A stretch of 64,000 nucleotides of DNA. It comes from Thiohalophilus thiocyanatoxydans. GTDB taxonomy: Bacteria > Pseudomonadota > Gammaproteobacteria > UBA6429 > Thiohalophilaceae. Shown piece by piece: positions 5,191 to 8,867 of this stretch. The notes beneath the pieces were generated by a model. The model was not told where the DNA came from. It searched no databases and saw only the letters and a program-made list of their open reading frames with translations. The stretch is from positions 310,001 through 374,000 of the forward strand of contig NZ_SOQX01000001.1 of the NCBI RefSeq assembly GCF_004366735.1, written 5' to 3'. The translations under genes and the position numbers were made by a program. The stretch's first letter is position 1, and each line of letters starts with the position of its first letter.

Positions 5191-5652
5191 TCAGGGACGA
5201 ATATAGGTATACCCCTGCTGTTGTTGTTTCATGATCTCAATTACCCCGGCCGGCACGTAACCGATGTCCGGCAGCATGTCACCTTTTGTCAGATCCCTGG
5301 CGCGCATGGTGTTTTCACAAGCGACAATCTTAACGCCCTGGTCCAGTGCGTTGGCGACACGGTTACCGGTTTCCGAGTCCATCTCCAGCATTCCGATGCC
5401 GGGGCCGTAGACTACGATCTCAACATCGACGTTATCGGCACCACCCAGCGCATTTTGAGCATTCCTGGCGTTATTGAGTGCCAGGTTCCATTTGCCGGGA
5501 CTGTTATCGCTGACCTGGATGACCATTTTCTGTTTGCCGGCCGTGGGAGAATTTGCTTCAGCCGCCGTTATGCTTAGAAAAGCCAATGTCAATAAGCTTA
5601 TCAGTGTAATGCGTATCAAACTTCTACTGCGCAAGTCTGCTGTTCGGTTCAT
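5191..5652 (-). CDS. Secreted DsrE/DsrF-like family protein
   Basis: A 153-residue protein with a signal peptide (hydrophobic core about 13-32, likely cleavage near AEA-N) and a DsrE-like alpha/beta fold: MVIQVSDNSPGKWNLALNN, the VDVEIVVYGPGIGML strand-turn and VKIVACENTMRARDL holding the single Cys112. Periplasmic DsrE-like proteins with one such cysteine occur near sulfur-metabolism and redox genes; a persulfide-carrier role is plausible but not shown. AGGAGAG stands before the ATG. It lies 105 bases upstream of the GGDEF/EAL gene on the same strand and is divergent from the thioredoxin/sigma operon. Confidence 0.8.
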   Translation of the reverse strand: MNRTADLRSRSLIRITLISLLTLAFLSITAAEANSPTAGKQKMVIQVSDNSPGKWNLALNNARNAQNALGGADNVDVEIVVYGPGIGMLEMDSETGNRVANALDQGVKIVACENTMRARDLTKGDMLPDIGYVPAGVIEIMKQQQQGYTYIRP

Positions 5653-5876
5653 GGATCTCTCCTACAAATGATGGTTGTCAGGGGATTAACCGGTTATGGA
5701 AGGTCGCCATACAGATGCCGCCCTCGCCACAACGGAGTTATTGATTAGACGCTCAAAAACAGGTTGCCTTACAACCGTCTGCAAGAGAATCGTGGAGGCT
5801 GTAAGGATCGGGCGGTCCGGGCGACCAAACTGTAATCCCGGGATAGGTACCGGCGAAGTGAATCAGGAGAGAGCGA

Positions 5877-6311
5877 ATGAACCATGTTATTAATGGCCTG
5901 TTGGCCGGCCTTGTTGCCACCGTCGTGTTGTCGGTACTCATGGTGATAAAAGATATGATGGGGCTGATGCCCGATCTGAATGTGATCGGTATGCTGGCCG
6001 CTCAGATGGGTTCGGGGCCGACCATGGGGTGGCTGGCCCACATTATGATCGGAGTTGTCGGTTACGGCCTGGCCTATAGTCTGCTGTTTCGTCGCCTGCC
6101 GCTGGGAGGCCATGGAGTGCGTGGCATTCTGCTGGGTGTTGTGGGCTGGCTGGTAATGATGCTGGCGCTGATGCCAATGATGGGGGGCGGTTTGTTTGGC
6201 TCAGGCATGCCCAGCGGCATGATGGTCCCCATCGCCACCCTGATTTTGCACGTCATTTTTGGTGCGGTACTGGGCGGGGTCTATGGAAGACTCGGCCACG
6301 CCGAAGTGTAA
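5877..6311 (+). CDS. DUF6789-like integral membrane protein
   Basis: A 144-residue protein with four predicted membrane helices (about 5-22, 50-70, 80-103, 117-138) rich in Gly and Met, including a Met/Gly-rich loop MMGGGLFGSGMPSGMM. It resembles small uncharacterised membrane proteins of the DUF6789 type. AGGAGAG precedes the ATG. It is the first gene of an operon with a thioredoxin-like gene 12 bases downstream, an ECF sigma and a zf-HC2 protein. The Met-rich segments are suggestive of copper contact, but no function is known. Confidence 0.7.
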   Translation: MNHVINGLLAGLVATVVLSVLMVIKDMMGLMPDLNVIGMLAAQMGSGPTMGWLAHIMIGVVGYGLAYSLLFRRLPLGGHGVRGILLGVVGWLVMMLALMPMMGGGLFGSGMPSGMMVPIATLILHVIFGAVLGGVYGRLGHAEV

Positions 6312-6323
6312 AGCGGCTTTCTC

Positions 6324-6731
6324 ATGGAACTTCTCTTTTTCGGGTTGATTGTCACCGTAACCGGCCTCCTGCTCTGGTGGCAATGGGCCATGCGGCGCCG
6401 GGCGCGACGTCTTGTCGGCCGCGCGGCGCCGGATACCCGGGCAGTTGACAGGCACTGCACGGCACGGCACCGGATCTACTTTTTTCATGCTCCTCGTTGC
6501 GGGCCGTGCCGGGCTGCGGCACCGGTGGTGGATAAGCTGTCGCGGCAATATTCCAATCTGATCTCGGTGGATGTTACCGCGCATCCCCGGCTGGCCTATG
6601 AATTTGGTATCGCTGTCACGCCCTCGTTTGTGGTTGTCACGAACGACCGGATCAGTGAGCTCAGGCTCGGCGCCGCCGGGGAGAGCTGGTTGCGCGCCCG
6701 TCTGGAGAGGGGCGCGGAGAGCATGGCATGA
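6324..6731 (+). CDS. Membrane-anchored thioredoxin-fold protein
   Basis: 135 residues: an N-terminal membrane helix (about 3-23) followed by an arginine-rich stop (RRRARRL), then a short thioredoxin fold with active-site CGPC (in FFHAPRCGPCRAAAP) and the cis-Pro loop VTPSFVVV. The positive residues after the helix would place the thioredoxin domain in the cytoplasm. It lacks the canonical WCGPC tryptophan and is not the housekeeping thioredoxin, which is trxA at 23740. It follows the membrane-protein gene by 12 bases and its stop overlaps the upstream possible start of the sigma gene (ATGA at 6728-6731). A redox-sensing or thiol-reducing role beside the sigma/anti-sigma pair is inferred. Confidence 0.8.
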   Translation: MELLFFGLIVTVTGLLLWWQWAMRRRARRLVGRAAPDTRAVDRHCTARHRIYFFHAPRCGPCRAAAPVVDKLSRQYSNLISVDVTAHPRLAYEFGIAVTPSFVVVTNDRISELRLGAAGESWLRARLERGAESMA

Positions 6732-6823
6732 GTCTGCACACCGCCTGCTACCCTGTCCCAGGGATACCCATCCCGGGTTGGCTCGGTTACACTGTGGGTT
6801 ATTTCTCCGGACCGTTTTCCGTC

Positions 6824-7429
6824 ATGCGCGAACCATTACAGAGTGTTGCCAATCAAGGGGCCGAAGATGCCTTCTCCGAAGCGGCTATCGCCGCGTTGCG
6901 CCACGACATGCTGCGCTTTGCCCGCCTGCAGTTGCGGGAAGAGGCCGCTGCGGAGGATGCGGTGCAGGAGGCGCTGGCCGCCGCCTATGTCGCCCGCGAC
7001 GGGTTTGCCGGCCGCTCCCAGCTCAAGACCTGGGTCTTTTCGATCCTGCGCAACAAGATCATCGATATCCTGCGTCAGCGCACCCGGCACCCGACCCAGA
7101 GCCTGACGGCTGACGACGGCAGCGATATGGAAGTCGAACAGCTGTTCAATGAAAAGGGCATGTGGCACAGGCAAAAGCGTCCCACCGATTGGGGCGATCC
7201 CGAAACCGAGCTCGACAACACCCAGTTCTGGCGCATCTTCGAGCTCTGCCTGGATGAGCTGGCCGAACAGCCGGCACGGGTCTTCAGCATGCGAGAATTT
7301 CTCGGTTTTGAGACGGCGGAGATCTGCGCCGAACTGGGCATCAGCGAAAGCAACTGCTGGGTGATTCTGCATCGGGCACGCTCCCGCCTGCGCCTGTGTC
7401 TTGAAAAAGAATGGTTTGCACAGGGGTAA
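6824..7429 (+). CDS. ECF-type RNA polymerase sigma-70 family factor
   Basis: A sigma factor of about 201 residues. Region 2 covers EDAVQEALAAAYVARDG and LKTWVFSILRNKIIDILRQ; region 4 holds the helix-turn-helix FLGFETAEICAELGISESN followed by CWVILHRARSRLR. A longer linker with MWHRQKRPTDWGDPE joins them. The frame is open back to an ATG at 6728 that overlaps the thioredoxin stop, but those 32 residues are proline-rich and unlike sigma factors, so the ATG at 6824 is preferred. The next gene encodes a small zf-HC2 protein, the usual anti-sigma partner. Its regulon may include the convergent hvfA/doxX genes; that link is by proximity only. Confidence 0.85.
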   Translation: MREPLQSVANQGAEDAFSEAAIAALRHDMLRFARLQLREEAAAEDAVQEALAAAYVARDGFAGRSQLKTWVFSILRNKIIDILRQRTRHPTQSLTADDGSDMEVEQLFNEKGMWHRQKRPTDWGDPETELDNTQFWRIFELCLDELAEQPARVFSMREFLGFETAEICAELGISESNCWVILHRARSRLRLCLEKEWFAQG

Positions 7430-8445: not shown

Positions 8446-8486
8446 ATCGGGCGCTGCGGCGAAAGAGAGATGCCGCAGTGCCCGAT
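8446..8486 (-). promoter_or_regulatory. Strong hairpin between hvfA and doxX
   Basis: Fifteen-base arms (8446-8460 and 8472-8486) pair with a single mismatch around an 11-base loop. On the minus strand only a short T run (TTTC) follows, so it is a partial terminator or an RNA-stabilising 3' structure for the hvfA message. It would favour more precursor mRNA than doxX mRNA. Confidence 0.65.
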
Positions 8487-8537: not shown

Positions 8538-8867
8538 TTAATTACTGCCGCACTTACCTTCACCGCATTTGCCTTCGGCATCTTTATCTTTTTTCTCGGA
8601 TTGGGCGCCACATTTGCCTTCTCCGCACTTGCCTTCCTGGGTTTTGGCGTCGGCGCTTTTACCTTCGCCACACTTGCCTTCGCCGCATTTACCTTCACTG
8701 CCTTTTTCGGCAAGCAGCATGTAACCGTTGTCCAGCTCGCTCATGGCAAAGGGGTTGTCGCTTGCCGGTGTGGCGGCGGAGGCGATATTGCTGGCGGCCA
8801 GGGTGGTAGCGAGTGTGGCCCCGACGGCCCACGATACGGACTTGAGTGTCTTGTTTGAATGTGACAT
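8538..8867 (-). CDS. hvfA: HvfA-type (bufferin-like) RiPP metallophore precursor
   Basis: A 109-residue secreted precursor. A signal peptide (about 1-31, ending ASA) is followed by a short spacer and a low-complexity Cys/Gly/Lys/Glu region. Six EGKCG motifs form three pairs; their cysteines fall at 61/66, 81/86 and 101/106, an exact 20-residue period, and a seventh unit is degenerate (EGKS at 68-71). In the Haemophilus hvf system the MNIO enzyme HvfB with partner HvfC converts EGKCG cysteines to copper-binding oxazolone/thioamide pairs. No DUF692 (MNIO) or DUF2063-type gene is present in this window, so modification must come from elsewhere or not occur. A good GGAG site precedes the ATG, and doxX follows on the same strand. 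Confidence 0.85.
   Translation of the reverse strand: MSHSNKTLKSVSWAVGATLATTLAASNIASAATPASDNPFAMSELDNGYMLLAEKGSEGKCGEGKCGEGKSADAKTQEGKCGEGKCGAQSEKKDKDAEGKCGEGKCGSN

Follow-up and report, generated by a model that had tools for sequence, protein, structure and literature searches.

Several described systems lie close to the locus studied here; the papers are cited by PMC number. In Haemophilus influenzae, the hvfABCX (oxazolin) operon encodes an EGKCG-repeat precursor, an MNIO (DUF692) enzyme, a DUF2063 partner, and HvfX, which has been called uncharacterised (PMC13419390). The fontiphorin genes fonABC encode an EGKCG precursor that is converted by an MNIO and PME1 to a product with 5-thiooxazoles that binds copper, and purified FonBC accepts most substitutions in a two-repeat substrate (PMC12668002). 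The older assignment of oxazolone/thioamide pairs, on which the initial annotation of this locus relied, has been superseded by 5-thiooxazole, with a change of −4 Da per Cys (PMC12668002, PMC13419390). For precursor genes that lack an adjacent MNIO gene, modification from another locus, or none at all, has been suggested (PMC12452194).

Regulation by alternative sigma factors has also been described. RpoE2 of H. influenzae is HOCl responsive and is restrained by an anti-sigma factor of 67 aa; an operon that includes DoxX, DUF2063, and UPF0276 genes, taken here to be hvf, is affected by RpoE2 (PMC7907618). The sigma-E operon of Neisseria (NMB2140-NMB2145; NGO1944-NGO1948) includes genes for the sigma factor, a ZAS anti-sigma factor, and DUF692, DUF2063, and DoxX proteins, and this cluster is cotranscribed in meningococci (PMC2893595, PMC2954202). 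The meningococcal sigma-E promoter consists of a -35 element GTMAGBWTT, a spacer of 12-13 nt, and a -10 element CGTCTAAH (PMC2893595).

The stretch of DNA analyzed here (the window; 64 kb) corresponds to C1:310001-374000 of a 2.9-Mb assembly (G000) that has 15 contigs and is listed as 100% complete. Its features are given in Table 1.

Table 1. Features at and near hvfA1, in window positions
Feature	Position	Strand	Basis or remark
DsrE-like protein	5191..5652	-	ORF list, profile
Divergent promoter-like match, -10 CGTCTAA, 92 nt before DsrE gene	5745..5773	-	One mismatch
Sigma-E-type promoter before DUF6789 - thioredoxin-like - sigma - anti-sigma genes	5800..5828	+	Same promoter as before hvfA1
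DUF6789 protein, first gene of sigma operon	5877..6311	+	ORF list, profile
Thioredoxin-like protein of sigma operon	6324..6731	+	ORF list, profiles
ECF sigma factor, TIGR02943 family	6728..7429	+	248 bits, cut-off 162
Zinc-type anti-sigma factor, 67 aa	7411..7614	+	NF052368, 77.8 bits, cut-off 50
hvfX, DoxX-type membrane protein, 197 aa	7743..8336	-	NF050144 match
Stem-loop between hvfA1 and hvfX	8447..8485	-	RNA fold; without clear T-run
hvfA1, HvfA-family EGKCG precursor, 109 aa, six cysteines	8538..8867	-	ORF list, profile matches, dN/dS
Sigma-E-type promoter before hvfA1, TGTAAGG-N15-CGACCAA	9022..9050	-	154 nt before ATG

The EGKCG motifs of HvfA1 start at residues 58, 63, 78, 83, 98, and 103 of the translation, and the cysteines are at residues 61, 66, 81, 86, 101, and 106, as first read from the ORF. 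The protein passes the cut-off of the NCBIfam HvfA-family repeat model NF050137 (69.4 bits; cut-off, 19.5) and falls short of that of the narrower HvfA equivalog NF050188 (73.9 bits; cut-off, 95), so it is filed in the wider family only. By eye, its N terminus has a charged start, a hydrophobic stretch, and an ASAA-type site, indicating a putative signal peptide. Compared with the same-genus genome G038, hvfA1 has a dN/dS of 0.13 and all six cysteine positions are identical, which argues for a maintained gene and against a chance ORF; hvfA1 is a real gene under purifying selection. The perfect 20-residue period of the cysteine pairs described in the initial annotation is real in HvfA1 and is also present in G038, but it does not characterize the family. 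Repeats of 17 residues have been described among HvfA-type precursors (PMC12452194), the second EGKCG precursor of the genome (HvfA2) has irregular spacing, and other members differ; the period was therefore rejected as a family hallmark.

The next gene on the same strand, previously considered a nearby DoxX gene of HvfD-like type, encodes HvfX, with a score of 201 bits against NF050144 (cut-off, 80). It is the sole match above the cut-off in the genome, the second (on C5) reaching 33.7 bits. The two genes are also together in G038, where the comparison gives a dN/dS of 0.06 for hvfX, and the closest HvfX in the named collection, from an uncultured gammaproteobacterial MAG (L090), is 81% identical. 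The predicted fold has a mean pLDDT of 81.3, and a Foldseek search of the PDB with this model gave no match at E ≤ 0.001. A second structure comparison placed NACHO/TMEM35A first (Z, 11.8; 116 aligned; 3.3 Å), followed by the vitamin K-dependent carboxylase (Z, 9.2; 134 aligned; 4.1 Å). Both are under the Z of ~13 that marks the caution level of such comparisons for helical bundles, so a quinone role for HvfX remains a guess. The stem-loop predicted between the two genes may set the ratio of both products; a stem that differs in sequence is located at the corresponding position in G038.

A whole-genome profile search, proposed in the initial annotation, found two MNIO and two DUF2063 matches, on C3 and C7; as had been stated there, the 64-kb window itself contains neither. 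On C3, the MNIO and DUF2063 genes lie beside a HvfA-family EGKCG precursor gene in the order hvfA2-hvfB-hvfC, an operon from which hvfX is absent. The term “orphan” thus fits hvfA1 at its own locus, but not in the genome as a whole. All four hvfABCX gene types are present in the genome, distributed as hvfA1 and hvfX in the window and hvfA2, hvfB, and hvfC on C3. Since the C3 operon lacks hvfX and the window lacks hvfBC, we read the two as one hvfABCX set split over two loci, plus a second precursor. The same split is found in G038, in which hvfA1-hvfX and hvfA2BC are ~2 Mb apart on one contig and the single MNIO match is that of hvfA2BC. In a tree of 35 HvfB proteins, those of G000 and G038 group with three sequences, two of them of genus g16 (90/83, not starred), and the two copies from G029 are unplaced, so we claim no history for hvfA2BC.

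The MNIO/DUF2063 pair on C7 follows a different Cys-rich precursor, without EGKCG repeats. This precursor (87 aa; L001:1142-1405) has the N terminus MISRRKFAKLS, which we take to resemble a twin-arginine (Tat) export motif. If it does follow the Tat route, modification could precede export. No mention of twin-arginine was found in the accessible parts of the bufferin and MNIO literature.

The sigma operon adjoins hvfA1-hvfX on the opposite strand. Since the TIGR02943 match begins at residue 50 of the sigma ORF, the true start may lie further inside. The anti-sigma factor has the arrangement C13-X25-H39-X3-C43-X2-C46, which fits the published ZAS pattern (PMC7907618). Alignment of upstream regions revealed TGTAAGG-N15-CGACYAA before hvfA1, hvfA2, and the sigma operon in both G000 and G038. 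We searched 13 whole genomes for this pattern, allowing at most one mismatch and using the reversed pattern as the control. In G000, there are exactly three perfect matches (hvfA1-hvfX, the sigma operon, and hvfA2BC), where ~0.04 would be expected for 2.9 Mb at equal base frequencies, and three more with one mismatch (before the DsrE gene, on C2, and on C7). G038 has four exact matches, of which three precede the corresponding genes and the fourth lies 44 nt upstream of an ORF that is at least 485 aa long. A TIGR02943 sigma factor above the cut-off is found in 5 of the 40 genomes of the family; these five have 30 promoter matches versus 9 for the control, compared with 10 versus 10 in eight genomes without the sigma factor (Fisher P = 0.045). 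Without G000 and G038, in which the motif was found, the sigma-bearing genomes still have 18 matches versus 6.

In G029, where dsrE follows the other genes in the order hvfA-B-C-X-dsrE, the promoter pattern occurs upstream of hvfABCX, dsrE, and the sigma gene, as well as before another module, hvfA-DoxX-sigma. At the same threshold, no match was found before hvfABC of G001, hvfABCX of G017, or the sigma operon of G017, and five hvf loci that lie outside the family and have a linked sigma gene (G041, G148, G401, L153, and L161) did not show the pattern. G006, which has no sigma factor above the cut-off, has one exact match, with no ORF of at least 60 aa starting within 400 nt. Rather than being a chance neighbor, the sigma/anti-sigma pair of the window probably regulates both hvf loci.

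The linker between the signal peptide and the first cysteine is NPFAMSELDNGYMLLA in HvfA1 and NPFAMSELSSGYMQLA in HvfA2, with 13 of 16 residues identical. Among the fetched loci, 86 distinct HvfA-like ORFs were scored for the dipeptide GY upstream of their first Cys motif. It is present in 50 of the 54 that adjoin an MNIO gene, and one of the four exceptions (L145) is probably a wrong ORF. Of the 32 with no MNIO gene nearby, seven were set aside: L035, at a contig break; L097, a fragment at an edge; an ORF of L174 that lies within another; and L131, L144, L160, and L161, from genomes outside the MNIO search. Among the remainder, GY occurs in 17 of 20 orphan precursors of MNIO-bearing genomes, the misses being in G401, G336, and G160, but in none of the five from the four genomes that lack MNIO matches (one each in G006, G007, and G024 and two in G158); the Fisher P value of 0.001 for this comparison is computed on related rows that are not independent. 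Two of the counted orphans (L185 and L186) are at contig edges, and without them the fraction is 15/18. The linker idea arose from G006, G007, and G024, that is, three of the four MNIO-free genomes; in the later test set alone, GY is found in 0 of 2 precursors (G158) versus 12 of 15 orphans.

Our reading of this pattern is that GY-bearing orphans stay under selection as MNIO substrates, with NPFAMxEL..GYMxLA as a candidate recognition element. HvfA without its signal sequence is poorly modified (PMC13419390). In an alanine scan of a FonA fragment, no single pre-core residue was essential (PMC12668002), which counts against a strict requirement for any linker residue. The element can be mutated or exchanged, and the MNIO-free relatives are available for comparison.

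HvfA-DoxX loci without HvfB and HvfC, for which a survey of relatives had been suggested, do occur. In the family, an MNIO gene lies within 1.5 kb of 26 of the 32 NF050137 loci; the other six are in G000 (C1), G038, G024, G029 (C6), G031 (C217), and G039, the last at a contig break. G039 was dropped as an MNIO-free case, its hvfA and hvfC-hvfX being at contig ends. A class-wide sample of 370 genomes, each with a completeness of at least 90%, includes 103 with NF050137 matches. Outside the family, 79 of the 80 HvfA-bearing genomes searched for MNIO (of 99) have one, the exception being G158. Among the class matches listed, 17 of 75 loci (68 genomes) have no MNIO within 3 kb, two of these 17 being in G158 and another two at contig edges. 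This distance count excluded seven MNIO rows that were weak or partial, and none of the seven shares a contig with one of the 17 loci. Loci without a neighboring MNIO are thus fairly common, whereas genomes without any MNIO are rare, in agreement with PMC12452194, whose Table 3 lists 67 of 2,583 genomes with Buf_EGKCG genes as lacking MNIO genes.

A second natural split is found in G041, in which hvfA-hvfX and a divergent sigma/anti-sigma pair are on C18 (L171:3785-5964) and the only MNIO gene is on C12 (L189:3405-5004), as part of an hvfBC pair with no precursor recognised beside it; the 8-kb stretch around this hvfBC contains no ORF of <320 aa that passes the Cys filter. The G041 sigma factor is 34% identical to that of the window.

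Other arrangements were also observed. Two genomes with an orphan hvfA elsewhere have one-locus clusters, hvfX-sigma-anti-sigma-hvfA-B-C in G148 (L187:2457-6216) and hvfA-B-C-X-sigma-anti-sigma in G401 (L188:1132-4793). Compact modules of an hvfA-like gene, a short DoxX gene, a TIGR02943 sigma gene, and an anti-sigma gene, without MNIO, are present in G029 (L046:6510-8467) and G001 (L049:6467-8549), both of which hold MNIO elsewhere; the G001 peptide of this module has SCG/SCGG instead of KCG. In G006 (L055:5710-6654), G007 (L056:5430-6436), and G024 (L051:3712-4655), an HvfA-like gene lies beside a shorter DoxX gene in a genome with no MNIO match, possibly as an enzyme-free branch of the family. 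We inspected 80 named HvfX loci. On the stretches fetched, 36 of them show no labelled MNIO, and contig ends truncate several of these; L160 and L161 clearly have hvfA directly before hvfX without MNIO, and L097, which lies at a contig edge, may have the same arrangement. Nine Microbulbifer loci (L105, L109, L112-L114, L117, L118, L121, and L122) have hvfX without a recognised precursor or MNIO on the fetched stretch, and hvfX may be split off there too. An EGKCG cluster, mmrA-C, has been described in Microbulbifer, and the main text of that report does not mention DoxX (PMC12538549).

On the basis of these comparisons, it is probable that HvfA1 is modified in trans by the HvfBC pair of C3 and that hvfA1-hvfX belongs to an hvf (oxazolin/captophorin-type) system whose other half lies at a separate locus. 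Modification by an MNIO encoded elsewhere was the first of two alternatives given in the initial annotation, and the presence of hvfA2-hvfB-hvfC on another contig behind the same promoter sequence supports it. We favor it because hvfBC adjoins a second EGKCG precursor, the only hvfX above the cut-off is that of the window, and the three exact promoter matches mark hvfA1-hvfX, the sigma operon, and hvfA2BC. The sister genome G038 repeats both the split and the exact promoters, with its single MNIO in hvfA2BC; the GY linker is kept in HvfA1, HvfA2, and most orphans of MNIO-bearing genomes; G041 has hvfA-hvfX and its sole hvfBC on separate contigs; and purified FonBC tolerates most substitutions (PMC12668002). 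Counted against it are the G001 and G017 hvf loci and the G017 sigma operon without a promoter match, the absence of the pattern from the sigma-linked hvf loci outside the family, the isolated exact match in G006, the three orphans without GY (G401, G336, and G160), and the four no-GY rows beside MNIO.

In the mechanism that we propose, oxidative or metal stress would probably cause the 67-aa anti-sigma factor to release the ECF sigma factor. Judging from the shared promoter, the released sigma factor would transcribe its own operon, hvfA1-hvfX, and the distant hvfA2-hvfB-hvfC. HvfB and its partner HvfC may then recognise the signal peptide plus the NPFAMxEL..GYMxLA linker and would convert the cysteines of HvfA1 and HvfA2 to 5-thiooxazoles before export. 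The exported peptides would hold copper(I) in the periplasm, and the single HvfX presumably serves both of them.

The second alternative of the initial annotation, that of unmodified thiols, now appears less likely and is given a small share of the probability. Here, the six free thiols of HvfA1, together with HvfX and perhaps the thioredoxin-like protein, would buffer copper or oxidants in the periplasm. HvfA-like and DoxX genes are paired in all four MNIO-free genomes (G006, G007, G024, and, ~1.8 kb apart, C13 of G158), which suggests that such peptides may function without the enzyme. However, HvfA1 retains the GY linker that is absent from the five precursors of those genomes, an HvfBC pair with the same promoter is present in the genome, and all but 1 of the 80 searched class genomes with an HvfA match have an MNIO. 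In a mixed form of this reading, which we also regard as unlikely, one sigma factor would govern two pools: HvfA2 would be modified by HvfBC, and HvfA1 would keep wholly or partly free thiols that are worked on by HvfX, giving a mixed periplasmic buffer. If this were true, the HvfA-DoxX modules without MNIO in relatives would represent a branch of the family that works with thiols alone.

It is very improbable that the C7 pair modifies HvfA1 instead of HvfBC: it is present in the same genome, but it follows a different kind of precursor, has no exact promoter match, and has no counterpart in G038, where HvfA1 is found without a second MNIO. We give equally little credence to the idea that hvfA1 is decaying after the loss of hvfBC from a former hvfABCX cluster. 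Although the window resembles the G029 order hvfA-B-C-X-dsrE minus B and C, hvfA1 and hvfX have low dN/dS values (0.13 and 0.06, respectively), and all six cysteines and the promoter are kept in G038. In addition, tblastn found no hvfB or hvfC remnants between hvfA1 and hvfX, which leaves the loss itself likewise unproven.

With respect to earlier work, orphan precursors are already published, and sigma-E control of hvf genes is not new, given the Neisseria and Haemophilus reports; here, that control appears to join separate loci. The new elements are the split hvf set under one promoter and the linker pattern, for neither of which a report was found in the accessible open-licence main texts. 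A survey of 2025 (PMC12452194) left open whether remote precursors are modified from another locus or stay unmodified. The genus of the window is a clean case for this question: a single HvfBC pair, a single HvfX, and promoters of one type go with two EGKCG precursors, and the sister genome has no other MNIO.

HvfA1 is like the Buf_EGKCG/oxazolin orphans of that survey in that its gene is not beside an MNIO gene; for those orphans, the accessible text names no serving enzyme, shared promoter, or linker criterion (PMC12452194). The work on FonABC and the captophorins, in its accessible parts, concerns each cluster's own precursor, and trans service of a remote precursor was not found reported there. 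In the window, a sigma factor assigned to TIGR02943 by its profile score lies next to a small anti-sigma factor assigned by profile score and the ZAS pattern; the Neisseria operon likewise encodes a sigma factor and a ZAS anti-sigma factor. The promoter found here has the layout of the Neisseria sigma-E promoter (PMC2893595), with a -10 element of CGACYAA, compared with CGTCTAAH in Neisseria; CGTCTAA occurs here only before the DsrE gene. The Neisseria genes are contiguous, whereas the system of the window is split. H. influenzae shares with this genome an EGKCG precursor, an MNIO, a DUF2063 partner, and HvfX, and its anti-sigma factor for RpoE2, HrsE, has the same length of 67 aa as that of the window (PMC7907618). 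The H. influenzae system has one operon and one precursor, whereas here there are two loci, two precursors, and one HvfX. The hvfA1 locus seems to represent a known system in rearranged form, not a new kind of system.
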